Source of the DNA: a virus
IMG/VR virus record: IMGVR_UViG_3300000115_000230
Coordinates: 1 to 22,281 of that record
DNA: 22,281 nucleotides
Direction: 5' to 3' (one strand)
Shown piece after piece: positions 2-21,389 of this stretch. Below the pieces are notes generated by a model. That model was not told where the DNA came from and did not search any database. It saw only the letters and a list, made by a program, of their open reading frames with translations. Position numbers and translations under genes: made by a program. Position 1 is the first letter of the stretch. Each line of letters starts with the position of its first letter.

Positions 2-208
2 ATCTTTGCAACACCAGCTAACAAGTTGGAGTTCAACATACGCATGCAATTTGTAAAAGCAATGATTGAGTATTGCAAACCAGCAATACATAGTGTATCA
101 TTGGAACAACAAACCTACTTTAAATCTTTCGTAACATGGTTAGACAATACTAAGAAAGACTTTAAAGAATTACATACTTACATTAAGGAGTCAACAATAT
201 GTGCATAG
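2..208 (+). CDS. 3' end of an unknown protein (partial)
   Basis: The frame is open from the first complete codon at position 2 to TAG at 206-208, so only the last 68 residues are visible and the start lies outside the window. The segment is mixed charged and aromatic, with no recognisable motif; it contains one internal Cys and ends in Thr-Ile-Cys-Ala. The gene overlaps the next one by 10 bases and contains its ribosome binding site (AAGGAG at 185-190), so the two are translationally coupled. I do not recognise the family. A TTG at 26 could act as an internal start, but the frame stays open upstream, so a truncated longer gene is more likely. Confidence 0.6.
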   Translation: MFATPANKLEFNIRMQFVKAMIEYCKPAIHSVSLEQQTYFKSFVTWLDNTKKDFKELHTYIKESTICA

Positions 209-1065
209 CAATAATGAAATCAGAAAACAAAAAGATTAGTAAGACTACATTACAAAGATGTTACGATGCTAATCCAGATGGTGCAGGCTTTATGTTTGCA
301 GACAACAAAGAACTGACTGTAAAGAAAGGTTACTTTACATTCAAAGAATTCTACAAGGAGTATAAACCACATGAGAACAAACAAGTACTATTACACTTTC
401 GTATTAAAACGCATGGTAAGATTGATAAAAACAATTGCCATCCGTTCCTTGTTAATAGTGGGCTTGGCTTTATTCATAATGGTATTATCTCTGGTTACGG
501 TGATGATAAACAATCAGATACTATAGATTTTAACAAGTCTATACTACAAAAGATTGTAGCTAAACATGGTAACATGGGATTATTTGATGACCCAATGGTT
601 GAGCTTATTGAAAATGTAATAGGCTACAGTAAGCTAGTCTTCCTTGATAGACATGGTAACTATCGTATCATGAATGAAGATAAAGGTCATTGGAACAATG
701 GTATATGGTATAGTAACAACAGTTACAAGAAACCTGAACCAGTTACATACACAGGATATGATTGGACTAAGCAAGGTACGCAACGTACTTCGCTGCCATC
801 GGCAGCAAAGGACTATAGCTCCCTCGCTTCTAGTGATTGGCTTATATGTAATGAAGACTATGACTATGGTATAGGTGATGATACAGTAACTATTAAAAAA
901 GGTGAATGGGTTGAAGTAGAAAATGTAGATAATAAAAGTAAAACTTGTACACTAATTACTGGTGAGTACATGAACCCTACTATCTTTACTAAAGTTCCTT
1001 TATCTGTAGTAAAATCATGGGAAGATGCTGATACATATAATTACAACAAGTCGTTTGACTTTTAA
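199..1065 (+). CDS. Class II glutamine amidotransferase-like protein
   Basis: The 288-residue product begins Met-Cys, so removal of Met would expose Cys2 as the N-terminal nucleophile of an Ntn-hydrolase glutaminase. Matching family motifs are H66-F-R68 followed by T71-H-G73 (the HxRxxTxG-type substrate loop), H81-P-F, and H93-N94-G95 (oxyanion hole). About 190 residues resemble a glutaminase domain; the last 90 or so are unassigned, with no visible synthase domain. Such enzymes release ammonia from glutamine for a partner. The acceptor here is unknown; a nucleotide, DNA base or cell-wall target is possible. The start is fixed by the AAGGAG box eight bases upstream and by the required Cys2. 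An alternative is a YafJ-like stand-alone amidotransferase. Confidence 0.75.
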   Translation: MCIAIMKSENKKISKTTLQRCYDANPDGAGFMFADNKELTVKKGYFTFKEFYKEYKPHENKQVLLHFRIKTHGKIDKNNCHPFLVNSGLGFIHNGIISGYGDDKQSDTIDFNKSILQKIVAKHGNMGLFDDPMVELIENVIGYSKLVFLDRHGNYRIMNEDKGHWNNGIWYSNNSYKKPEPVTYTGYDWTKQGTQRTSLPSAAKDYSSLASSDWLICNEDYDYGIGDDTVTIKKGEWVEVENVDNKSKTCTLITGEYMNPTIFTKVPLSVVKSWEDADTYNYNKSFDF

Positions 1066-1731: not shown

Positions 1732-2412
1732 ATGAGTTTATTTAAAGGACATCTACCTTGTCCTAAATGTGGTAGTAAAGATAATCTAGGAGATTATGAT
1801 GACCACCAATTTTGTTTTGGTTGCCAGTATTATGTAAGAAAAAATGATACTGCTAGCTTACGAGCAAGAATGAATAAAGATAAAACTGATTCAAATACTT
1901 ATACTATACCTATTACCAATGACATACCTCAAGAAGCTATGCAATGGTTATTAAAGTATAATATTACAGAAAAAGAAATAAAAAAATACAAAATCTCATG
2001 GAGTCCTTTAAAGATTCTTGTATTGATTATATCAAAAAGTTATTGGCAGGGTAGAAACTTTGGCTTTGGTAATCAAAAGTATAAGTCCAATGGTATTAAA
2101 CCATTGAAGAAGTATGGTTCAGGTAATACATTAGTATTAGTAGAAGATGTTTTATCTGCTATTAAAATAGCAAGAACAGAGGATTACTCTGGTGTTCCTT
2201 TACTGGGCAGCAGTCTAAGTAAAGAACATGAGTTGCGTTTAATTAAAAACTATGATACAATATATGTATGGCTTGATAGAGACAAAGCTAAAAATGCAGT
2301 AAAGATTAAGAATAGATTAAGAGAATTAGGGATAACAAGTAAAGCGATTATAACACCCCTTGACCCTAAAGAGTATAACGAAACGGAGATTAATATATGG
2401 TTGAAGAACTAA
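1732..2412 (+). CDS. DNA primase (zinc-finger plus TOPRIM, T7 gp4 N-terminal type)
   Basis: This 226-residue protein would synthesise RNA primers at the replication fork. The N-terminus carries a zinc-binding module, C10-P-K-C13 and C28-F-G-C31, as in the primase half of T7 gp4. The TOPRIM core shows the catalytic Glu138 in LVLVEDVLSA and the acidic pair D182-R-D184 in VWLDRD. It lacks a helicase domain, which is supplied by the next gene overlapping its last 16 bases; in T7 both are on one polypeptide. The ATG at 1732 is preceded by AAGGAAA. The gene is divergent from the PqqA-like gene, with about 90 bases between starts. Confidence 0.9.
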   Translation: MSLFKGHLPCPKCGSKDNLGDYDDHQFCFGCQYYVRKNDTASLRARMNKDKTDSNTYTIPITNDIPQEAMQWLLKYNITEKEIKKYKISWSPLKILVLIISKSYWQGRNFGFGNQKYKSNGIKPLKKYGSGNTLVLVEDVLSAIKIARTEDYSGVPLLGSSLSKEHELRLIKNYDTIYVWLDRDKAKNAVKIKNRLRELGITSKAIITPLDPKEYNETEINIWLKN

Positions 2413-3635
2413 TACTTAAATTATTTATAGAAGATAATAAAGCCTTTACAAAATTCTATAAGTATGTTAAACTAAATTATATAAAGAATAATTATACTAA
2501 CTTATATAAATTATTTCTTGTTGTTAATAAATACTATACTAAATACAACAAAGATAATATAACTAAAGAAGAACTATTAACAGAATTTAATGTTAATTAT
2601 TATTTAGAAGATTCTGAAAGAGATGAAATAGAATCTTTAATAGATAGAGTTATTAACAAAACAATAGATAATGAAGACTCTTTAATAGAGTTACTTAACG
2701 AACATAAAAGAAGAGCGTTAGCTGGCGACATAGCCAAGCTAGCTCTTGATGTAGAAGAAGGTACTGCTAAAACTTCTGAACTAATAAATAAGTTTTCTGA
2801 TTTTGAACACCAAGATATACAAGAAGATACAGCAGAAGCAGTTAACATGGAGCTAAATGATTTATATAAATCTCAAACAGGTACACCGGGATTAAGATGG
2901 AGATTAAACTGGCTAAACAAATCACTAGGTTCATTACGCAAAGGTGATTTTGGTTTTATATTTGCAAGACCAGAGACAGGTAAGACCACTTTCCTTGCCT
3001 CAGAAATTACCCATATGGTTCAGAACACACCAGGAGATATAATATGGTTTAATAATGAAGAGCAAGGTAAGAAAGTGGCAATCAGATGTTATCAAGCTTT
3101 ACTTAACTTGACAAGTAAAGAACTCTTTGATAACATAGAAGTTAATAGTGAGAAGTATAAAGAATTAACAGGAGGTAGAATTAAGATATATGATTATGAA
3201 GACTCATCTAATACTGGACGTATAGAACAGATACTAAAAGAGTCAAACCCAAGTCTTATTATCTTTGACCAGATGGATAAAATAAAAGGATTCAAATCAG
3301 ATAGACATGACTTACAACTTAAACAACTATATCAATGGGCTAGAGAACTTGCTAAAGGATATGCTCCAGTCATTGCAGTTAGCCAAGCAGGAGGAACTGC
3401 TGAAGGTAAGCTATGGTTAACAATGGATGACGTTGATAGTAGTAAGACAGCGAAACAAGGTGAAGCTGACTGGATACTAGGCATAGGTAAAGAACAAGAT
3501 AATACAAGTCATATGAGATTCTTAAACATAAGTAAGAATAAATTATTAGGTGATAGCGATAGCTTGCCAGACCTAAGACATGGTAATGCTAGCGTAATAA
3601 TTAAACCAGAAACAGCGAGGTATATAGACCAATGA
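2397..3635 (+). CDS. Replicative DNA helicase (DnaB/T7 gp4 C-terminal type)
   Basis: A 412-residue RecA-fold helicase. The N-terminal 150 residues are Lys/Asn-rich and probably helical, suiting a primase-interaction or hexamer-linker region. The ATPase core starts around residue 165 (PGLRWRLNWLNKSLG). Walker A reads ARPETGKTT with G195-K196-T197, and Walker B is SLIIFDQMD with D291. A later IAVSQAGG segment matches the motif H3 region of gp4-type helicases. The first glycine of Walker A is replaced by Ala. The ATG at 2397 lies behind GGAG, and the gene overlaps the primase by 16 bases. Its end overlaps the polymerase start by four bases (ATGA at 3632-3635). Confidence 0.9.
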   Translation: MVEELILKLFIEDNKAFTKFYKYVKLNYIKNNYTNLYKLFLVVNKYYTKYNKDNITKEELLTEFNVNYYLEDSERDEIESLIDRVINKTIDNEDSLIELLNEHKRRALAGDIAKLALDVEEGTAKTSELINKFSDFEHQDIQEDTAEAVNMELNDLYKSQTGTPGLRWRLNWLNKSLGSLRKGDFGFIFARPETGKTTFLASEITHMVQNTPGDIIWFNNEEQGKKVAIRCYQALLNLTSKELFDNIEVNSEKYKELTGGRIKIYDYEDSSNTGRIEQILKESNPSLIIFDQMDKIKGFKSDRHDLQLKQLYQWARELAKGYAPVIAVSQAGGTAEGKLWLTMDDVDSSKTAKQGEADWILGIGKEQDNTSHMRFLNISKNKLLGDSDSLPDLRHGNASVIIKPETARYIDQ

Positions 3636-4783
3636 ACTATCTAACACTAGATGTAGAAACAACTATAAGTAACAAAGGTAATCCATTTGACCAATCAAAC
3701 AAGCTAATGCTTGTAGGATTAAGTAATGGAAAAACATATGATATAGAATACTCCGTTGACCCCTACAAGGAATTGCTAGACGACATCCAAATCGCTGTGG
3801 ATAAGGCAGATGTGCTTGTAGGGTTTAACATTAAATTTGATTTGCATTGGTTACAAAGATATGGTATAATATTTAAAGACAAAAGAATATGGGATTGTCA
3901 ACTAGTAGAATTTATACTGCGTAACCAAGCTAACCCTTACCCATCTCTTAATGGTGTAGCAGAATACTATGAGTTAGGAAGTAAGTTAGATGAAGTTAAA
4001 GAAAACTACTGGAAGAATGGTATTGACACAGACCAAATACCATTACCGATACTAAGAGATTATTTACAACAAGATGTAAAACTAACAGAACAAGTTATGT
4101 ATAGGCAACAAGCAGTATTAAAAGAAAGACCAGAGTTACAAAGACTTATATCATTACATAACCAAGACCTAATGGTACTACAAGAAATGGAATACAATGG
4201 TCTTAACTTTGAGTATGAAAAGTCTAATACACTAGGAGATGAACTTGAAGAACAAATTGGAAAGCTGGACAGACGACTTCATGAGTATATTAATTATGAT
4301 GATTTTAATCCCAACAGCGTTGACCATCTTAGTGCTTTACTTTATGGTGGTAATATTAAAGCAAAGCGTCAAGTACCTATTGGACATTATAAAACAGGCG
4401 ATAGAAAAGGTGAAGTTAAATATAAATGGGAAGAATTTTTAATACCTTTTAATAGAATGTTTAATCCAATCCCAGGAACAGAGTTAGCTAAAGAAGGATT
4501 GTATTCAACAGATGACAAGACATTGAGAAGTCTCAAAGGAAATAAGAACGCAATGGAACTACTAAACATCTTATTAACTAGAGCAACATTAGAAAAGAGA
4601 AGGTCTACATATTACATTGGATTAACCAAACTCATTGATACAATGAAATGGAAACACAATACAATACATGGACAACTTAATCAATGTGTAGCAAAAACAG
4701 GTAGGTTAAGTAGTAGTAAACCTAACTTACAGAACTTTGATGGAGAGATTAAAACACTCTTTACAACTAGATACGGAGAATAA
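3632..4783 (+). CDS. DNA polymerase A, N-terminal fragment (3'-5' exonuclease and thumb)
   Basis: The 383-residue product is the front part of a family A DNA polymerase. The proofreading exonuclease is complete: Exo I D7-V-E9, Exo II N66...D70 in GFNIKFD, and Exo III Y144...D148 in YLQQD. Residues 150-370 match the thumb and first palm segment, ending with TGRLSSSKPNLQNFD, the conserved region ahead of motif A. The frame then stops with TAA right after Arg-Tyr-Gly-Glu. The remaining polymerase motifs A, B and C lie in a separate gene at 5005-5724, after a 72-codon insert. The fragment alone should be an exonuclease without polymerase activity; the two products probably assemble into one enzyme. 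A frame-shifted or degraded polymerase is less likely, because no residues appear lost at the break. Confidence 0.88.
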   Translation: MNYLTLDVETTISNKGNPFDQSNKLMLVGLSNGKTYDIEYSVDPYKELLDDIQIAVDKADVLVGFNIKFDLHWLQRYGIIFKDKRIWDCQLVEFILRNQANPYPSLNGVAEYYELGSKLDEVKENYWKNGIDTDQIPLPILRDYLQQDVKLTEQVMYRQQAVLKERPELQRLISLHNQDLMVLQEMEYNGLNFEYEKSNTLGDELEEQIGKLDRRLHEYINYDDFNPNSVDHLSALLYGGNIKAKRQVPIGHYKTGDRKGEVKYKWEEFLIPFNRMFNPIPGTELAKEGLYSTDDKTLRSLKGNKNAMELLNILLTRATLEKRRSTYYIGLTKLIDTMKWKHNTIHGQLNQCVAKTGRLSSSKPNLQNFDGEIKTLFTTRYGE

Positions 4784-4784
4784 T

Positions 4785-5003
4785 ATGAGCAGAGATGACT
4801 ATTTACCAACAGATGAAGATGAGCAACAAGCTCAAGAAGAAGCACATAAACATCATACTATACAAGAGTTTGCTGCTATAGTAATGGCAGATGGACCAGC
4901 AGCAACGCTGGGTCAAATGCCTGATGATGCTAAAAATGAAATAAGACAATTAATATTGCATGATTACATGCAAAGATTATCATCAGCTAATTCAGGATTA
5001 TAA
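4785..5003 (+). CDS. Small gene inserted between the two halves of DNA polymerase (72 aa)
   Basis: ATG 4785 lies behind GGAG (4775-4778) and one base after the stop of the polymerase N-terminal gene; TAA is at 5001-5003. The 72-residue product has an acidic N-terminus (PTDEDEQQAQEEA), a His pair, then a probable helical region (IQEFAAIVMADGP...LGQMPDDAKNEIRQLI). It has no cysteines and no recognisable endonuclease or intein motif. Both of its borders carry the same seven-base stop-plus-start string TAATATG (4781-4787 and 5001-5007). Its position suggests a role tied to the polymerase, such as an assembly or processivity factor, but that is only inference. Confidence 0.7.
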   Translation: MSRDDYLPTDEDEQQAQEEAHKHHTIQEFAAIVMADGPAATLGQMPDDAKNEIRQLILHDYMQRLSSANSGL

Positions 5004-5004
5004 T

Positions 5005-5724
5005 ATGTTATTAAACGCAGACGCTAAACAATTAGAATGGGTAGGTGCTGCTTATCTATCTCAAGATAGCACTGCTATTAAAGAGATATTAGATGAAGTA
5101 GACCAACATACAGACAATCAAACAAGGTTTGGACTACCCTCTAGGTTAATAGCTAAGACGTTTGTCTTTAGATTAATCTATGGTGGTAGTGCATACTCAT
5201 ATAGTATGGACCACAACTTTAAAGATATAGGTAACGAATCCTTCTGGCAAGATGTGATAGATGAGTTCTATAAAAAATATGATGGTTTAAAGAAATGGCA
5301 CGAAGAAATACTTTTCCGTGCTAAAAGAGACCAGTATCTTATAATGCCAACAGGCAGAAGATACGACTACCCACCTGAGTTAAGTAGCTTAGGTAAAGTT
5401 AAGTATCCACGAACAAGAATACTTAACTATCCTGTTCAAGGATTGGGAGCAGATTTGATGTCAATTGCTAGAGTATCATTGCGCAATAGACTCAAAGATA
5501 AAACAGGTATACAATTAATTAATACTGTACACGATTCTATTATGCTTGACTTTGATACTAAAGTATGGGATAATAATAGTATAGTATCGTTAGTTGATAC
5601 TTGTTTTAATGACGTACCTGATAACTTTGAAAAGTTATTTGGTAAGAAGTTTAATCTACCCATGCGAGTCGAGTGTCAAATTGGTGAAACATGGGGTAAT
5701 ATGGAGACAGTAAATGCAAATTAA
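5005..5724 (+). CDS. DNA polymerase A, C-terminal fragment (palm and fingers, motifs A-B-C)
   Basis: This 239-residue protein holds the polymerase active site. Motif A is NADAKQLEW with D6 and E11, matching T7 gp5 D475 and E480. Motif B (O helix) has R47, K51, F55 and Y59 with the exact spacing of T7 R518, K522, Y526 and Y530. Motif C is TVHDSIMLD with H176-D177. Thus both catalytic aspartates are present. The residue equal to T7 Tyr526 or E. coli Phe762 is Phe, which in studied enzymes favours discrimination against dideoxynucleotides. Motif C has Ser where HDE is usual. ATG 5005 is chosen because it directly follows the small gene's stop and starts just before motif A. It overlaps the SSB gene by 11 bases. 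Confidence 0.9.
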   Translation: MLLNADAKQLEWVGAAYLSQDSTAIKEILDEVDQHTDNQTRFGLPSRLIAKTFVFRLIYGGSAYSYSMDHNFKDIGNESFWQDVIDEFYKKYDGLKKWHEEILFRAKRDQYLIMPTGRRYDYPPELSSLGKVKYPRTRILNYPVQGLGADLMSIARVSLRNRLKDKTGIQLINTVHDSIMLDFDTKVWDNNSIVSLVDTCFNDVPDNFEKLFGKKFNLPMRVECQIGETWGNMETVNAN

Positions 5725-6238
5725 TGTTATAGATGTAGGGAGTGTTAATACACACTCGGCAAAGAACGGTAGACAATACCAATCTTTAGAAGTAACTTAT
5801 AAGAATGAACAAGGACAAGCTCAATCTAAAAAGCTAATGTCATTCTCTGCACCTCAAGTATTTAAAGCAGCACAAGAATGGCAAAAAGGTGATAGTATTA
5901 ATGTCGCTACCAAGAAAGATGATAATGGTTATTGGCAATGGACAAATATTCTTGCAGATGGAGAAGTAGATACACAAGAAACTTCTGGTAGTGGTGTTAA
6001 ACCACAAGCAACCAGAGTATCTGGAAGTAACTATCCTACTCAAGATGAAAGAGCTCAAACACAAGCATACATTATTAAACAATCATCATTAAGTAATGCA
6101 GTATCTACTTTAGCTATTAGTGGTAAGCCAGTTACAGCTAATGATGTAATTAGTTTGTCTAAGATGTATGAAGGATACGTTCTTGGAGTTAATCAAACAG
6201 AAACAATAGACGACATGGCTTCTGATATACCTTTTTAA
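5714..6238 (+). CDS. Single-stranded DNA-binding protein
   Basis: The 174-residue product starts with a beta-rich segment (MQINVIDVGSVNTHS...GRQYQSLEVTYKN) consistent with an OB fold, followed by a Thr/Ser/Gln-rich linker. It ends with Asp-Asp-Met-Ala-Ser-Asp-Ile-Pro-Phe, the acidic DIPF tail that SSB proteins use to recruit replication partners. It would coat single-stranded DNA at the fork. The gene starts inside the polymerase C-terminal gene and is followed nine bases later by the exonuclease, fitting a replication operon. Sequence resemblance to E. coli SSB or T7 gp2.5 in the core is weak, so the call rests mainly on tail, size and context. Confidence 0.78.
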   Translation: MQINVIDVGSVNTHSAKNGRQYQSLEVTYKNEQGQAQSKKLMSFSAPQVFKAAQEWQKGDSINVATKKDDNGYWQWTNILADGEVDTQETSGSGVKPQATRVSGSNYPTQDERAQTQAYIIKQSSLSNAVSTLAISGKPVTANDVISLSKMYEGYVLGVNQTETIDDMASDIPF

Positions 6239-6247
6239 AGGATTAGT

Positions 6248-6994
6248 ATGTTAGCATTAATTGACCATGATTTAGTTGTATTTAGAAGTGCTGCCTCAGC
6301 AGAAAAAGATGGCTTTGGTATTGCAAAATATAGAGCAGAGCAGTTGTTAGATACTCTAATGGAGAAAACAAAAGCTACAGAATACCGTGCTTTTATTTCT
6401 TCAAAGAGTAACTTCCGTAAAGACATATTACCTAGCTACAAAGCTAACAGAACTGCTCCTAAACCTAAACATCTTAAAGCATTACAAGACTATGCATTAG
6501 AACACATGAATGCAGAATTAGCACGTGATGGGTTGGAAGCTGATGACGAACTTGCTATTAACCAAACAGACGACACTATAATAGTATCTCTGGATAAAGA
6601 CTTATTGCAAGTTGCAGGTAAGCACTTCTCATGGGAAATTAGTGGTAAGAATTGGACAAGACCTGATACGTTTGTAACACAAACAGAACTTGAAGGTCTT
6701 CGTCTATTCTTTGAACAATGTATCAAAGGAGATACAGCAGATAACATCAAAGGCATAAAAGGATTAGGAAATAAAAAAGCTAAGAATCTATTAGGAAGTT
6801 GTGAGAACCCTGAAGAAATGTTTATAATTGTCCAGGATTTATATGCAGACAATGAAAGATTAATTCAAAATGGTTCTTGTCTATGGATGAAAAGATTTTT
6901 AGAAGACAATTGGAGAGATAGGTTTGAACAATTTCAAAAGCAAACTGGAGGAGAAAGCATGGAAAGAACTGAAGAAGAATTTTCCGTCAGTTAA
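6248..6994 (+). CDS. 5'-3' exonuclease / flap endonuclease (T7 gp6-like)
   Basis: A 248-residue FEN/PIN-like nuclease that would remove RNA primers and degrade host DNA. Metal-binding acidic residues follow the family order: D6 and D8 at the start, E97-A-D99-D100, D116-K-D118 in SLDKDLL, and G161-D162...D165-N166. A helix-three-turn-helix DNA-binding segment (IKGIKGLGNKKAKNLL, about 167-182) follows. The arch-side basic stretch FRKDILPSYKANR is also present. It lies directly downstream of SSB with an AGGA box before ATG 6248. Its last 71 bases overlap the endonuclease I gene in another frame. Confidence 0.9.
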   Translation: MLALIDHDLVVFRSAASAEKDGFGIAKYRAEQLLDTLMEKTKATEYRAFISSKSNFRKDILPSYKANRTAPKPKHLKALQDYALEHMNAELARDGLEADDELAINQTDDTIIVSLDKDLLQVAGKHFSWEISGKNWTRPDTFVTQTELEGLRLFFEQCIKGDTADNIKGIKGLGNKKAKNLLGSCENPEEMFIIVQDLYADNERLIQNGSCLWMKRFLEDNWRDRFEQFQKQTGGESMERTEEEFSVS

Positions 6995-7307
6995 GTATGA
7001 ACCAGATGCTATACCATATAAGCAACCAGAAAAGGAGCGTAAGTACACGCCAGACTTTAAGCTTGCACGTGGTGTATATATCGAAGCTAAAGGTAAATTA
7101 GATTTAGCTACTAGACAGAAAATGGTTTGGTTTAAAGATATGCATCCAGGCATTACAATAATCTTTTTATTTATGAATCCTGATAATAAGATAACAAAGA
7201 GAAGTAAAACAACTTACTGGCAGTGGGCTGAGAAAGAAGGGTTCATGTGGCTAGACTTTAGGAGAAACTGGATAGATGGTTATAAAAAACTTAGTAGAGA
7301 ACGATGA
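6924..7307 (+). CDS. Endonuclease I (T7 gp3-like Holliday-junction resolvase)
   Basis: A 127-residue homologue of T7 endonuclease I, which cleaves branched DNA and breaks down host DNA. Catalytic residues keep the exact T7 spacing: E9 (T7 E20), D44 in TPDF (D55), E54 (E65) and K56 (K67) in YIEAKG. The start is inferred to be TTG at 6924: it gives the conserved FKSKLEEK N-terminus and lies eight bases after GGAG at 6912-6915, while no ATG in this frame precedes the catalytic Glu. The start is buried 71 bases inside the exonuclease gene, and the end overlaps the next gene by 32 bases. The active enzyme in T7 is a dimer. Confidence 0.9.
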   Translation: MNNFKSKLEEKAWKELKKNFPSVKYEPDAIPYKQPEKERKYTPDFKLARGVYIEAKGKLDLATRQKMVWFKDMHPGITIIFLFMNPDNKITKRSKTTYWQWAEKEGFMWLDFRRNWIDGYKKLSRER

Positions 7308-7467
7308 TGGTAGTGTAGACTTTGACTTTAAAGTTGATAAGAATGAAAATGAATTCTTAGTAAACTTTGCTATCAAAGCATTAATTAGAGAAGGTGTAAT
7401 TAAAACATCTACAGAAGAAATGCAAGAGGGTATGGATGTTAAAATAGATAAGGAGACATTAAATTGA
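7276..7467 (+). CDS. Small hypothetical protein (63 aa)
   Basis: The 63-residue product is acidic and contains a likely strand-strand-helix pattern (VDFDFKVDKNENEFLVNFAIKALI is split around residues 13-36), with no cysteines. ATG 7276 is preceded by AGGAG about eleven bases upstream and overlaps the endonuclease I gene by 32 bases. Its TGA stop overlaps the TTG start of the metallophosphoesterase. No family is recognised; position alone suggests a replication or DNA-processing accessory. Confidence 0.7.
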   Translation: MVIKNLVENDDGSVDFDFKVDKNENEFLVNFAIKALIREGVIKTSTEEMQEGMDVKIDKETLN

Positions 7468-8225
7468 AACATTTAGTAATCCCCGATACCCAAGTAAAGC
7501 CAGGCATTAGTCTGGCTTACTTAACTTGGATAGGGAAATATATAGTAGAAAAACAACCAGAAGTTATTATACAAATAGGAGACTTTGCAGACATGCCTAG
7601 TCTTTCTTCTTATGATACAGGTAAAAAATCTTTTGAAGGTAGAACATACAAAGCAGATATACGAGCTGCCAATAAAGGAATGGAGGCATTACTAGCTCCT
7701 ATGAAAGCCCTTAATAAAAGATTAGCTAAACAAAAGAAAAAACAATACAAACCTAAAATGATATTAACATTAGGTAATCATGAAGATAGAATTTCAAGAG
7801 CTGTAGAGTATGATAGAAAATTAGATGGTCTAGTAGACTTAGGAGATTTAAATTATGAAAAATCTGGATGGAAAGTATATCCCTTTTTGGATGTCATTAG
7901 TATTAATGGTATTGCTTACTCTCACTATTTTGCTAGTGGAGTTATGGGAAGACCAGTTACTTCAGCAAATGCCTTGCTTACCAAAAAACATATGTCATGT
8001 TTTGCAGGACATCAACAAGGCAGACAGATTGCTTACGGAAGGAGAGCTGATGGTACAGAAATGACAGCAATTATTGCAGGTAGTGCTTACATGCATGATG
8101 AAGAATACTTATCACACCAAACCAATCAACATTGGAGAGGTATCTATATGTTACATGATGTTAAAGATGGTAGCTTTGATGAAATGGCGGTTTCAATGAA
8201 ATATTTAAAGGAGAGATTTGCTTGA
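7464..8225 (+). CDS. Calcineurin-like metallophosphoesterase
   Basis: A 253-residue protein with the metallophosphoesterase motifs in order: D8-T-Q10 (motif I, usually DxH), G39-D40-F-A-D43 (motif II), G104-N105-H106-E (motif III), H154 in YSHYF, and G182-H183 (motif V). It would hydrolyse a phosphoester; the substrate, which could be a nucleotide, nucleic acid or phosphoprotein, cannot be told. The motif I His is Gln, so one metal ligand may differ. The start is TTG 7464, nested in the previous gene's stop (TTGA) and placed eight bases after AAGGAG. It sits between the nuclease genes and the nucleotide-metabolism genes. The P2 promoter overlaps its last four bases. Confidence 0.88.
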   Translation: MKHLVIPDTQVKPGISLAYLTWIGKYIVEKQPEVIIQIGDFADMPSLSSYDTGKKSFEGRTYKADIRAANKGMEALLAPMKALNKRLAKQKKKQYKPKMILTLGNHEDRISRAVEYDRKLDGLVDLGDLNYEKSGWKVYPFLDVISINGIAYSHYFASGVMGRPVTSANALLTKKHMSCFAGHQQGRQIAYGRRADGTEMTAIIAGSAYMHDEEYLSHQTNQHWRGIYMLHDVKDGSFDEMAVSMKYLKERFA

Positions 8226-8250
8226 CTTTCAAGTAAATTTATGGTATAAT
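8222..8250 (+). promoter_or_regulatory. Sigma70-like promoter with extended -10 (P2)
   Basis: TTGACT (8222-8227), a 17-base spacer and a perfect TATAAT (8245-8250), with TGG immediately before it (extended -10). The ATG of the DUF3310-like gene follows after one base, so the expected transcript start near 8257 lies inside that ORF. The promoter would therefore serve the exported protein, the small acidic protein and nrdJ rather than the ORF it abuts. Confidence 0.65.
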
Positions 8251-8251
8251 T

Positions 8252-8458
8252 ATGGTACAAGCTAAAGAAAAACAAGTAGGTGGTACTCACTACTCTAAGT
8301 ATTCAATACAACCTATTGAATTCATTACAAAAAACAATATACCTTTTATAGAAGGTAATGTAATTAAGTATTTACTTAGATGGAGAGAGAAAGGTGGTAT
8401 ACAAGACATAGATAAATGTATTCACTATTTAGAATTATTAAAGGACTTAGAAAAATGA
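8252..8458 (+). CDS. DUF3310-type protein (68 aa)
   Basis: The 68-residue product has the family signature: KQVGGTHYSK near the N-terminus, IQPIEFI, then FIEGNVIKYLLRWREKGGIQDIDKC split across residues 32-55 and a C-terminal HYLELLKD helix. Small proteins of this family are common in tailed phages. They are sometimes labelled nucleotide kinase because of similarity to T7 gp1.7, but no P-loop is visible here. ATG 8252 is the first start after an in-frame stop at 8234-8236 and lacks a clear Shine-Dalgarno box. The gene ends in an ATGA overlap with the next one. Confidence 0.8.
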   Translation: MVQAKEKQVGGTHYSKYSIQPIEFITKNNIPFIEGNVIKYLLRWREKGGIQDIDKCIHYLELLKDLEK

Positions 8459-8838
8459 AAAACTTAATTACAACAACTATAGGTCATTTAATTATAGTAG
8501 TTGTTCTTATTAGTTTATATGCATTACTAGGAAGTTTGTTTACAAAAGCTGAAGCAGGAGACAAAGTAGGTGTTGGTAACTTTGTTATGGCAGTCAGTTA
8601 TACAGAATCATACAATGATTTACAATACGTTGCTAACTTTGTTAATTGTGATATGGCACAGACCTATTACAATGAAAACTGTGCGACACAAGGTGCGATG
8701 ATTATGATGTGTCAATTAGAACAATATCTTTATATGCCTATTGGTCATGATAGTGATTCATCATTTGACTTTGAACCTACTGACAGACAATCATGTGGCT
8801 TTGTCGGTGTACAGAAACCTAAATTTATAAAGGACTAA
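8455..8838 (+). CDS. Small exported or membrane-anchored protein with four cysteines (127 aa)
   Basis: The start is placed at ATG 8455, in an ATGA overlap with the preceding stop; this removes 13 residues from the longer possible frame and leaves Met-Lys directly before a hydrophobic stretch of about 20 residues (LIIVVVLISLYALLG). This is a signal peptide or anchor, with a possible cleavage site near Ala-Glu-Ala at about residues 31-34. The mature part has four cysteines (FVNCD, NENCA, MMCQL, QSCGF), suggesting two disulfides in the periplasm, and is rich in Tyr, Asp and Met. I do not recognise the family. Finding it between nucleotide-metabolism genes is odd; an envelope, superinfection-exclusion or lysis-related role is possible. 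Confidence 0.72.
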   Translation: MKNLITTTIGHLIIVVVLISLYALLGSLFTKAEAGDKVGVGNFVMAVSYTESYNDLQYVANFVNCDMAQTYYNENCATQGAMIMMCQLEQYLYMPIGHDSDSSFDFEPTDRQSCGFVGVQKPKFIKD

Positions 8839-8856
8839 CGAAGGGTCGGTCATATT

Positions 8857-9039
8857 ATGCTAGTTTTTGAAGAAGTATTAGAAGAACTTAAACGAGTAGA
8901 TGAAATAACTCTACTAGAAATGTTAGATGTTACATCAGAAGAGATTGTCAATCATTTTAGAGACAAAATAGAAGATAACATTGATAAATTTCAACAATAT
9001 GTAATAGATAATAAAGAGGATATAATTAATTATGAGTAA
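8857..9039 (+). CDS. Small acidic protein upstream of nrdJ (60 aa)
   Basis: The 60-residue product is acidic and almost fully helical by composition: EEVLEELKRVDEITLLEML, then TSEEIVNHFRDKIEDNIDKF. This resembles, from memory, a short conserved protein with an E-x-T-L-L-E-x-L-D core found in many marine podoviruses; its function is unknown. ATG 8857 has GAAGGG about eleven bases upstream. The gene overlaps nrdJ by eight bases. Confidence 0.72.
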   Translation: MLVFEEVLEELKRVDEITLLEMLDVTSEEIVNHFRDKIEDNIDKFQQYVIDNKEDIINYE

Positions 9040-10906
9040 AGAAGGACTGCCATCGGTATACCAAGACGTTATAGGATTATCCAGATATGCTAGGTTTTTA
9101 CCAGATGAAAACAGAAGAGAAACATGGACAGAAACAGTAGATAGATTAATAAAGTATATAACACCTAAAGCTCCCGAAATAGATTTAGTAGAAATAAAAA
9201 AAGCTATCCTTAATTTAGAGATTATGCCATCTATGAGATTATTAATGTCTGCAGGTGACGCTTGTGAACGTGATAATATTGCAGCATTTAACTGTAGTTA
9301 TTTAGCAGTTAACAATAAGCGTTCTTTTAGTGAAGCTCTGTATATTTTAATGAATGGAACAGGAGTTGGTTTTAGTTGTGAACGTCAAGAAATAGCTAAA
9401 CTTCCTGCAATACCAGAAGCATTAGAAAATGTAGATGACGTTATTGTAGTAGAAGATAGTAAACTAGGATGGGCTAAAGCTTTTAAGAAATTATTATCTA
9501 GTTTATGGGAAGGTGATATACCTACATTTGACTATACTAGAGTTAGACCAGCAGGTGCTAGACTCAAAACATTTGGTGGTAGAGCTAGTGGTCCAGAACC
9601 TTTAAAAAGATTATTTGATTTTACTACAGTTATCTTTAAAGAAGCTAAAGGTCGTAAATTAAACTCTATAGAAGTACATGATATTATGTGTATGGTAGGA
9701 GAAATAGTTGTAGTAGGTGGTGTAAGACGTTCTGCGTTAATCTCATTATCTAATCTAACAGATAAACGCATGAGAGAAGCTAAAACAGGAGCTTGGTATA
9801 ATGAAAACCCTCATAGAGGACTAGCTAACAATAGTGTTGCTTATACTGAACATCCCGATAGTGAAACTTTTATGGAAGAATGGTTATCCCTAGTTAAGTC
9901 TAAGTCAGGTGAACGAGGAATCTTTAATAGAATAGCTGCTCAAAAACAAGCAAACAAATGGGGAAGAAGAGATGAAACTCTTAGCTATGGAACAAACCCA
10001 TGCTCAGAAATTATTCTTCGTGATAAACAATTTTGTAATCTTACAGAAGTAGTTGTTAGAGAGCATGATACTGAGGATACTCTTACTAATAAAGTTAAAC
10101 TTGCAACAATACTTGGTACAATTCAATCTACATTAACAAACTTTAAGTTTTTATCTTCTGAATGGGAACATAATACAGAAGAAGAAAGATTGTTAGGTGT
10201 ATCTTTAACAGGAATTATGGATGCTAAAATAACATCTAATCCTGACCCTAAATTACTAGAGAGGTTAAGAGATGAAGCAAGAAAAACAAATACAGAATAT
10301 GCAAGAATACTTGGAATTTCGCCATCAGCAAGTATTACGTGTGTTAAGCCTTCTGGTACTGTTTCTCAGCTCGTTGACAGTGCTAGCGGCATACATGCTC
10401 GTCATAACGACTACTACATAAGAACAATCCGTATGGATAAAAAAGACCCTATCTATACATTCTTAAAAGATAAAGGTGTTCAAGTAGAAGATGAGCAATT
10501 TAGACCTGATTCTACAGCAGTTTTTAGCTTTCCTATGAAAGCTCCTAAAGGAGCAATATTACGAAATGATAAAACAGCTTTAGAACAGTTAGAGCTTTGG
10601 TTAATATATCAAAGACATTGGTGTGAGCATAAACCTTCAGTTACTATTTCAGTTAAAGATGCTGAATGGGTAGAAGTAGGTGCTTGGACTTGGAAACATT
10701 TTAGTGAAATATCTGGTGTATCTTTCTTACCACATACAGACCATACTTACGTACAAGCTCCTTATCAAGATTGTACTAAAAAAGAATATGAAGCCTTATT
10801 AAAGAAAACTCCTAAATCTATAGATTGGTCTGAGTTTATTGAGAAAGATGATAATACAGAAGGTTCACAGACATTAGCCTGTACAGGTGGGAGTTGTGAA
10901 ATATGA
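9032..10906 (+). CDS. nrdJ: Ribonucleoside-triphosphate reductase, adenosylcobalamin-dependent (class II, monomeric)
   Basis: A 624-residue class II ribonucleotide reductase that turns ribonucleotides into deoxyribonucleotides for phage DNA synthesis, using a radical made from vitamin B12 coenzyme. The active site is complete: C88 in FNCSY (L. leichmannii C119), N322-P-C324-S-E326 (N406, C408, E410), and C335 in FCNLTE (C419, same 11-residue spacing). The C-terminal reducing pair is C617-x4-C622 in ACTGGSC, as in the lactobacillus enzyme. It is shorter than the 739-residue L. leichmannii enzyme. No R2 subunit or thioredoxin is nearby, so host reductant and host or salvaged B12 are needed. The start at 9032 has a weak, distant GAGG and may rely on coupling with the preceding gene. 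Confidence 0.95.
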   Translation: MSKEGLPSVYQDVIGLSRYARFLPDENRRETWTETVDRLIKYITPKAPEIDLVEIKKAILNLEIMPSMRLLMSAGDACERDNIAAFNCSYLAVNNKRSFSEALYILMNGTGVGFSCERQEIAKLPAIPEALENVDDVIVVEDSKLGWAKAFKKLLSSLWEGDIPTFDYTRVRPAGARLKTFGGRASGPEPLKRLFDFTTVIFKEAKGRKLNSIEVHDIMCMVGEIVVVGGVRRSALISLSNLTDKRMREAKTGAWYNENPHRGLANNSVAYTEHPDSETFMEEWLSLVKSKSGERGIFNRIAAQKQANKWGRRDETLSYGTNPCSEIILRDKQFCNLTEVVVREHDTEDTLTNKVKLATILGTIQSTLTNFKFLSSEWEHNTEEERLLGVSLTGIMDAKITSNPDPKLLERLRDEARKTNTEYARILGISPSASITCVKPSGTVSQLVDSASGIHARHNDYYIRTIRMDKKDPIYTFLKDKGVQVEDEQFRPDSTAVFSFPMKAPKGAILRNDKTALEQLELWLIYQRHWCEHKPSVTISVKDAEWVEVGAWTWKHFSEISGVSFLPHTDHTYVQAPYQDCTKKEYEALLKKTPKSIDWSEFIEKDDNTEGSQTLACTGGSCEI

Positions 10907-20200: not shown

Positions 20201-20324
20201 TTCGACAAGTTCCTTTTAAATTATAATCACCTATATCTGTTACTGCTGCACACCACCATTCACCATTAAAGAAAAAAGCATCTTCTTTACATTTATTACA
20301 TATAGCTTTTCCTGTATCTACCAC
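20175..20324 (-). CDS. Small zinc-knuckle-like ORF (49 aa)
   Basis: Starting at GTG 20324, which overlaps the TAG of the preceding lysine-rich gene, this frame encodes 49 residues with C9-N-K-C12, a Trp-Trp-C25 and C40, a spacing that could bind one zinc. The segment FFFNGEWWCAAVTDIGDYN looks like real protein sequence rather than noise. It fills the only gap between the lysine-rich cassette and the adaptor gene and overlaps the adaptor start by 26 bases. The Shine-Dalgarno box is weak, so it may depend on coupled translation. No function is known. Confidence 0.55.
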   Translation of the reverse strand: MVDTGKAICNKCKEDAFFFNGEWWCAAVTDIGDYNLKGTCRNDVSRNSK

Positions 20325-20593
20325 TTTACTTTATCAGCCCAATATGCTGCACTAGTCTTTCCTTTCGCTATATTTTTTCCATGTCTTGCTTTAAATGATT
20401 TACGTTTAGCTTTCATTCTAGCAGACTCTCCTGCTTTAGGTTTACCTGCAGTAGAAGCGCCCTTCTCACCAAACCTAATCATTCTATCTTTACCATTATC
20501 TTTAATAAGAACTACATGAGATTTTTTACCCTTAGTAGACCTTTTAGGTTTATTATATCCTGCAAATGTTTCACCTCTATATGTTACACTCAT
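20318..20593 (-). CDS. Lysine-rich small phage protein (91 aa)
   Basis: The 91-residue, strongly basic product has a recognisable conserved middle and end: IRFGEKGASTAGKPKAGES followed by RMKAKRKSFKARHGKNIAKGKTSAAYWADKVKW. This is a widespread phage protein of unknown function. It is the last of five consecutive lysine-rich genes and starts in an ATGA overlap. DNA binding or packing is suggested by charge only. Confidence 0.8.
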   Translation of the reverse strand: MSVTYRGETFAGYNKPKRSTKGKKSHVVLIKDNGKDRMIRFGEKGASTAGKPKAGESARMKAKRKSFKARHGKNIAKGKTSAAYWADKVKW

Positions 20594-20826
20594 CTATAAC
20601 TCCTAGTTTTTTTAGCTATCTTCTTTGGTTGTTTTACGTGTTGCTTACCTTTTTTATTTCCTTTTCGTTTTGCTGCATTAGTAGCTTTTTTTTCTTTTTC
20701 AGTTAAAGCATTCCAAGCTGCATCAGGAAGATATCTTTTTTTACCTTCACTCTTTTTACCATCAGAGGTTCTCCACTTTTGTTTTGTCCATTTAGACAAA
20801 CTCTTTTGTGATTTAGCTTTAGCCAC
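20590..20826 (-). CDS. Lysine-rich small phage protein, DUF5872-like (78 aa)
   Basis: The 78-residue product matches, as I recall it, a conserved family of basic phage proteins: KSLSKWTKQKWRTSDGKKS, RYLPDAAWNALTEKEK, and KQHVKQPKKIAKKTRSYR at the end. The start is GTG 20826, five bases after a strong GGAGG (20836-20832) inside the upstream gene. A GTG at 20838 in the same frame lies over that box and is less likely. Function is unknown; nucleic-acid binding is plausible. Confidence 0.78.
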   Translation of the reverse strand: MAKAKSQKSLSKWTKQKWRTSDGKKSEGKKRYLPDAAWNALTEKEKKATNAAKRKGNKKGKQHVKQPKKIAKKTRSYR

Positions 20827-21001
20827 GATATCCTCCACCTTTTGCTTTATATTGCTTAGCTAACATCTGAGCTTTACGAGCTGACCATTGTCCAGGTTTA
20901 CCTCCTTTACCACCAGCTTTAATCTTATTAAAAAGACCTTTACGCATTGTAGGTTTAGTGTAATTACCTGCTTTATTTACAGTACTCTTTTTCTTTATCA
21001 T
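20819..21001 (-). CDS. Lysine-rich small phage protein (60 aa)
   Basis: The 60-residue basic product has the conserved pattern VNKAGNYTKPTMRK, then FNKIKAGGKGGKPGQWSARK and a Gly-rich end, familiar from many phages but without a known role. ATG 21001 is in an ATGA overlap with the upstream gene; its 3' end carries the GGAGG box of the next gene. Confidence 0.75.
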   Translation of the reverse strand: MIKKKSTVNKAGNYTKPTMRKGLFNKIKAGGKGGKPGQWSARKAQMLAKQYKAKGGGYRG

Positions 21002-21129
21002 TTTTTCTTAGGCTTAGTATGACCATAACCTTTTTTCTTTAGCTCTAAATGTTTCTTTTTAGTAAATACCATTTGTCCTTTACCAGTTTTAGAGTACATC
21101 ATGTGAGGTTTCATTTTTTTCATTTCCAT
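20998..21129 (-). CDS. Lysine-rich small protein (43 aa)
   Basis: ATG 21129 follows AGGAG at good spacing and overlaps the upstream stop (TAATG); TGA is at 21000-20998. The 43-residue product is Met- and Lys-rich at the start (MEMKKMKPHMMYSKTGKGQ) and has a KKKHLELKKKGYGHTKPKKK tail. It belongs to the basic cassette by composition and coupling. Not recognised further. Confidence 0.7.
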   Translation of the reverse strand: MEMKKMKPHMMYSKTGKGQMVFTKKKHLELKKKGYGHTKPKKK

Positions 21130-21389
21130 TATGCTCTCCTTTTCTTTTTCTTTTTGTTTGCTTCTTTAGCTAAGTTCTTTTTAGCTGACATTGCTTTTAA
21201 GTTACTTTTTCTATTATCCATTGCATTATCATTCTTGTGTGCTGCGTGGCGTTTATCACCTTTTTTAAGTTTAAGCTTAGTTCGTGCAGCATTACGAGAA
21301 GCTCGTTGTTTAACTCTTTTTTTCTTTTTTTCCTTTTCCCACTCAAGTTCTTTTTTATAATCTCTTTTTCCATTTGTCATAAAAGGCAT
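21129..21389 (-). CDS. Lysine-rich protein with HNH-like core (86 aa)
   Basis: The 86-residue product starts MPFMTNGKRDYKKELEWEKE and has a basic middle. It then shows HAAHKNDNAMDNRKSNLKAM, which resembles the H-x-x-x-x-x-D-N...SNL core of small HNH-type proteins. Zinc-binding cysteines are absent and the first His pair is degenerate, so nuclease activity is doubtful. ATG 21389 has GGGAG nine bases upstream and overlaps the previous gene's TAA as TAATG; a second ATG three codons on is possible. The C-terminus is a lysine/arginine run. Confidence 0.72.
   Translation of the reverse strand: MPFMTNGKRDYKKELEWEKEKKKKRVKQRASRNAARTKLKLKKGDKRHAAHKNDNAMDNRKSNLKAMSAKKNLAKEANKKKKKRRA

Follow-up and report, generated by a model that had tools for sequence, protein, structure and literature searches.

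The marine phage window analysed here, i.e. the 22,281 bases that constitute the whole of the IMG/VR virus record IMGVR_UViG_3300000115_000230 (an incomplete genome), encodes a family A DNA polymerase by two genes of the + strand. The first one (half 1, 3632-4783, 383 amino acids (aa)) encodes the 3'-5' exonuclease, the thumb and the first part of the palm; its product ends with ...TGRLSSSKPNLQNFDGEIKTLFTTRYGE, i.e. ...IKTLFTTRYGE, followed by the stop. The second one (half 2, 5005-5724, 239 aa) opens at the ATG at 5005 with MLLNADAKQLEW, in a frame different from that of half 1, and encodes the fingers and the remaining part of the palm with motifs A, B and C, up to the stop at 5724. The 221 nucleotides (nt) that separate both halves are almost entirely occupied by a 72-aa open reading frame (ORF) of the + strand (4785-5003), only 2 of the 221 nt lying outside it; this small gene belongs to a family common to MEP401 gp14 and MEP402 gp14. 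Putative Shine-Dalgarno (SD) sequences can be recognized on the same strand: GGAG (4775-4778), 6 nt ahead of the ATG that opens the small gene, and AGGA (4994-4997), 7 nt ahead of that of half 2. The latter lies within the final codons of the small gene. A first-pass annotation made from the sequence had correctly delimited both polymerase ORFs, which give complementary matches to DNA_pol_A, but had not listed the small gene located between them.

We consider it very likely that a single replicative polymerase of family A is produced here as two separately translated chains, most likely forming a heterodimer, that this split is old and vertically inherited, and that the junction between both genes is a slot for other genes.

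The assignment to family A relies on profiles, conserved residues and predicted structures. Both products match the Pfam family DNA_pol_A above its curated cut-off (34.3 bits), half 1 over profile positions 51-132 (71.5 bits) and half 2 over positions 154-380 (89.8 bits); the exonuclease match of half 1 is under its own cut-off (20.1 vs 23.6). Residues D7, E9, N66, F69, D70, Y144 and D148 of half 1 and D6, E11, R47, K51, F55, H176 and D177 of half 2 are invariant in 36/36 aligned rows; we take the former to represent Exo I-III and the latter motifs A, B and C. AlphaFold2 models, computed for each half from 36-row alignments, display a mean predicted local distance difference test (pLDDT) of 90.3 and a predicted template modelling score (pTM) of 0.79 for half 1, and values of 93.5 and 0.89 for half 2. 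When both models are superimposed on the same chain of Bst Pol I (4ez9_A), half 1 covers residues 313-646 (Z 20.1, root-mean-square deviation (rmsd) 3.1, 319 aligned residues) and half 2 covers residues 648-875 (or 876; Z 22.7, rmsd 2.2, 215 aligned residues), while half 1 ends at 699 in the comparison with Klenow. According to these models, the halves are complementary parts of one chain with a Pol I fold, and the cut lies in a loop within the palm, just before the strand of motif A. It does not correspond to the border between thumb and palm because the TGRLSSSKPNLQN segment is also present in half 1, together with the strand that comes after it. On the basis of the Pol I fold, we assume that this segment and this strand belong to the palm. 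Therefore, half 1 includes a part of the palm, and the initial proposal of a clean division between exonuclease plus thumb on the one hand and palm on the other does not hold. By contrast, the proposal that the two-gene polymerase is constrained rather than decayed is supported: besides the invariance of the residues taken as catalytic, the ratio of nonsynonymous to synonymous substitution rates (dN/dS) ranges from 0.05 to 0.23 for half 1 (10/10 comparisons) and from 0.03 to 0.20 for half 2 (9/10 comparisons, the tenth giving no dS), i.e. 0.03-0.23 over 19 of the 20 comparisons, which indicates from the sequences that both halves are under purifying selection.

A search for the same split in related genomes, as had been suggested, was successful. 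The 207 loci gathered were seeded with the halves of the window, so that the proportions of split and fused genes are not a prevalence; sorting by profiles yielded 159 split, 37 fused and 11 incomplete loci, the last being dropped. Three fragments with meaningless gaps (L050, L083 and L086) were removed from the split set, leaving 156 usable split loci, which amount to 128 distinct junctions since the same contig was fetched repeatedly for some of them (e.g. L003, L029 and L123). The spacer between the halves ranges between -17 nt, where the genes overlap, and 3598 nt, whereas the same region is continuous in the fused loci, chiefly relatives of the HMO-2011 polymerase. Half 2 opens with an ATG at the homologous residue in 147 of 150 loci, the other three having no start codon there. 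Furthermore, of the 75 distinct 20-mers located upstream from half 2, 55 contain an SD-like motif at proper distance, compared with 63 of 799 internal-ATG controls. The one-base frame change observed in an A-run near the start of half 2 in L040 is read as an assembly error. Separately, L194 displays a further interruption late in half 2 (6462-7174), which lies close to the NYPVQG region and separates the pieces by about 700 nt; no Rfam match at gathering score was obtained for it.

For phylogenetic analysis, partial-match loci were left out and 159 loci were kept, to which the window, the polymerase of Pseudomonas phage Ihaste and that of T7 were added (162 sequences); these were thinned by similarity to 61, L207 being re-added by hand. 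The T7 polymerase, too distant for the two profiles and sorted as incomplete, was also placed by hand. The 44/44 MEP401-type split taxa, including the window, MEP401 and MEP402, form one clade (ultrafast bootstrap (UFBoot) 92); a separate grouping (UFBoot 100) unites the three ICP2-type taxa with Ihaste, whose polymerase is unsplit. Forcing all split taxa together is rejected by the approximately unbiased test (p 5e-5 with the full constrained search, 0.034 with the fast one). The T7 root is a long branch and the deeper order is weak (supports of 77 and 82). Globally, the tree suggests that the split is old and vertically inherited in MEP401-type phages and that the MEP401-type and ICP2-type splits are probably independent.

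The content of the junction varies between loci. According to a count that includes the copies with upstream alternative starts, the slot contains a member of the small-gene family in 90 of 157 loci (window included), an unrelated ORF of membrane type in 17, both of these in 4, nothing in 16 and other sequences in 30. This other content includes an HNH gene in L081 and, weakly, in L204; the slot of ct2os315 contains a methyltransferase gene and other genes. A 3.6-kb slot containing genes for a cytosine methyltransferase, a stomatin-like protein and others also separates the halves of L039 (2402-6001). The contig of L004 and L124 displays 98.5-98.7% identity to the window on both sides of the slot (1732-4789 and 5005-9221), but its slot is different, with a 67-aa relative of the small gene and a 38-aa ORF (317 nt vs 221 nt). 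Similarly, the slot of L179 and L181 exceeds that of L190 and MEP401 by 223 nt and has one more ORF, between flanks that are 98-99% identical; L163 carries a relative of this ORF, for which a match to the winged helix family HTH_39 was obtained. In all, 99 of 258 pairs with at least 90% identity in both flanks were flagged as slot-different, these pairs being redundant and one of them trivial (L131/L132, both empty). From these comparisons, the junction appears to be a slot where small genes come and go with sharp borders, the halves being left untouched. The small-gene family itself is, judging from a median pairwise dN/dS of 0.253 over 335 pairs (some reaching about 0.75), under purifying selection; scans of 18 of its members against Pfam, PHROG and PDB gave only scattered matches, with expectation values (E) of 0.014 or weaker.

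The selection acting on this family, and its presence in 94 of the 157 slots, would fit another explanation, in which the two-chain polymerase is right and also requires the small protein as a third subunit, either a bridge or a chaperone, hence the position of the small gene. In two of the 16 empty-slot loci (L131 and L132), the small gene is even retained on the same strand, at a distance of 3.6 kb upstream. However, no copy was found in the available stretch of the 14 other loci with an empty slot out of 157 (mostly partial contigs, which may carry a copy elsewhere), and 17 and 30 of the 157 loci harbour only an unrelated membrane-type ORF or other content, respectively. An obligate role of the small protein thus appears unlikely, albeit less so than the explanations considered below.

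The second alternative is a group I intron located at the junction. Phage polymerase genes are often targets of introns, as indicated in the available text of PMC11878797, and the same gene of some relatives gives matches to group I introns (L088, E 1.8e-5; L089, E 6.9e-5; L095, E 1.2e-4), all under the gathering score. Nevertheless, these introns are located elsewhere: within motif B in L089 and L095, where the frame is interrupted at FR^IYGG, and between SSSKP and NLQN in L088. The second breaks of the polymerase in motif B extend over 2051-2554 in L089, 2938-3494 in L095 and 5332-5980 in L094, the last showing the same break without an Rfam match. In L088, an HNH gene and a group I intron lie inside half 1 (2951-3600), and the ordinary split is also present, with stop, slot ORF and half 2; L089 and L095 likewise seem to be polymerase genes carrying both the split and an intron. 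In the window, Rfam gave no intron match at gathering score and, with E up to 5, nothing in the region 4500-5400 apart from a weak S15 leader (E 0.59); no intron was detected at E up to 0.1 in the 6/6 relatives with filled slots that were scanned. Furthermore, the noncoding parts of such introns average 350±108 bases according to the available text of PMC11878797, as against 2 noncoding nt of 221 in the spacer of the window. The stop of half 1 and the ATG of half 2 are also found at homologous residues even when the spacer is reduced to between -17 and 3 nt, as in 9 distinct junctions. The contrast with the introns of relatives and the existence of empty slots point to two separately translated genes; the evidence thus goes against an intron, the split is probably not one, and we regard this alternative as very unlikely.

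Some observations weigh against a two-chain polymerase. The last 40 residues of half 1, which would pair with half 2, are modelled at low confidence (pLDDT blocks of 66, 67 and 62) and include its least confident stretch, which is expected for a strand without its partner yet also compatible with poor order; 20 of the 75 distinct stretches upstream from half 2 lack an SD-like motif as defined; and, the 22,281 bases of the record being about half of the 42,987 of MEP401, a second polymerase gene could lie outside the window. This last point would suit decay or mis-assembly, i.e. a frameshift or an insertion that killed the polymerase, with replication by another enzyme encoded outside the incomplete record. 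However, the split is found in 128 distinct junctions, with both halves under purifying selection. It is not a one-off assembly error because a second IMG/VR contig (L003) is 99.986% identical to the window across 7362 nt and because the complete isolate genomes of MEP401 and MEP402 display the same split. No intact polymerase gene was found elsewhere in the window or in the 5/5 complete MEP401-type records: MEP401, MEP402, ct2os315, ctOsX528 and QDWS535 each give only the two half matches to DNA_pol_A. Decay or mis-assembly is therefore highly improbable. A split intein joining both chains after translation, such as the one that, together with an HNH gene, was proposed for the split family B polymerase of jumbo phage MIJ3 (available text of PMC6892783), is scarcely conceivable here, half 1 reaching residue 646 of Bst Pol I and half 2 starting at 648 with no residues left over and no room for intein parts, since half 2 opens directly with the motif A strand.

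Read-through or frameshifting was also considered and rejected: one recoding event could not account for a change of frame combined with spacers of between -17 and 3598 nt. Only in ICP2_2013_A_Haiti are the halves in one frame and separated by a single TAA, which is followed by an SD-like AAGGA and an ATG.

Under the two-chain explanation, half 1, the small gene and half 2 would be translated in turn, each from its own start, from a common message. Chain 1 (exonuclease, thumb and partial palm) and chain 2 (fingers and palm) would associate via the palm and function together as a single polymerase of the T7/Pol I type. By analogy with the family B 43A/43B polymerase of phage 25, assembly of the halves into one working polymerase is most likely. 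The gene may originally have been broken by the insertion of a mobile endonuclease, an origin that is plausible because HNH genes are found at the junction in some relatives. After the split, small genes and, in some relatives, HNH endonuclease, methyltransferase or helix-turn-helix genes would have been exchanged at the junction. A broader and rather doubtful proposal can be added: the loop preceding motif A may be a recurrent site of fission and insertion, broken at least twice (MEP401 type and ICP2 type), the MEP401-type enzyme being an obligate heterodimer and its junction a safe harbour for accessory genes exchanged with sharp borders between nearly identical phages, with one small protein family kept as a polymerase accessory.

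Such a polymerase would be a natural split enzyme of family A, stable across a group of phages and present in cultured ones (MEP401 and, separately, ICP2). Its halves can be expressed and mixed, and the position of the break shows where a well-studied enzyme tolerates a cut. A single break point also serves the exchange of small genes. The split also accounts for the annotation of such polymerases as two partial genes.

The halves are part of a series of + strand replication genes that comprises a primase-like gene, a DnaB-like helicase gene (2397-3635, +), half 1, the 72-aa ORF and half 2. The helicase gene adjoins half 1 upstream, its stop and the start ATG of half 1 overlapping by 4 nt. Half 2 is followed by a gene without assigned family (5714-6238), then by a 5'-3' exonuclease gene. 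Elsewhere in the window, the protein encoded at 199-1065 (+) starts with MCIAIM, an opening that, we presume, resembles those of class II glutamine amidotransferases; the similarly placed MEP402 gp07 is annotated as a putative glutamine amidotransferase. At the right end (20318-21389, -), four successive small ORFs encode highly lysine-rich proteins, one of which matches phrog_7595 (unknown function).

The split was initially regarded as unusual for family A, but it is already published: the available text of PMC10580990 describes the polymerase of MEP401 and MEP402 as encoded by two ORFs between which a small unknown protein is inserted, reports split polymerases also in most of the group I metagenomic genomes and mentions a possible intron, a question that its authors leave open and on which the present comparison bears. 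No follow-up of the split was found in the literature searched on the MEP401 DNA polymerase and on split phage DNA polymerases. MEP401 and MEP402, phages of OM43 belonging to the Zobellviridae (OP830906 and OP830907), provide the best protein matches of the window and share with it the order helicase, half 1, small unknown ORF and half 2, as well as the same break. Identity reaches 67-68% for half 1 and 69-70% for half 2, compared with 38-44% for the small gene. By its sequence, the window is thus another MEP401-type case, with two ORFs, a small ORF between them and a place in the same clade. What is added here is the case against the intron suggested for MEP401 and MEP402, the position within the fold at which the chain is interrupted, the ICP2-type phages as a probable second and independent case of breakage, and the exchange of slot content with sharp borders.

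Like the window, the ICP2-type Vibrio phages (NC_015158, NC_024791 and VP41s3, MZ073369) encode a family A polymerase by two genes with variable content between them: an HNH endonuclease gene in ICP2, nothing in ICP2_2013_A_Haiti and an 87-aa hypothetical ORF in VP41s3. However, their break is located about 15 residues earlier than that of the MEP401 type. Half 1 ends right after PNLQN(I/L)SN, and half 2 has the strand that is carried by half 1 in the MEP401 type; in ICP2_2013, half 1 ends with ...PNLQNISN and a stop, and half 2 begins with MSDIKRCIISRF. In T4-type Aeromonas phages with a split family B polymerase (43A/43B), the enzyme is likewise divided into two chains, and an endonuclease gene can lie at the break. 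According to the available text of PMC2988022, the 43A and 43B products co-purify in the case of Aeromonas phage 25 and are active as a polymerase; functional enzymes also arise from other phage genes that homing endonucleases have interrupted. Unlike 43A/43B, the polymerase of the window belongs to family A by both Pfam and fold. Another comparison is offered by the polymerase gamma of cyanophage Mic1, which we take to be a family A enzyme. In the available text of PMC7156551, the published description by which it is known here, this polymerase extends over ORF86 and ORF85, with the exonuclease part on the first one and a break inside the PolA motif, associated with a 298-bp stretch called an intron.

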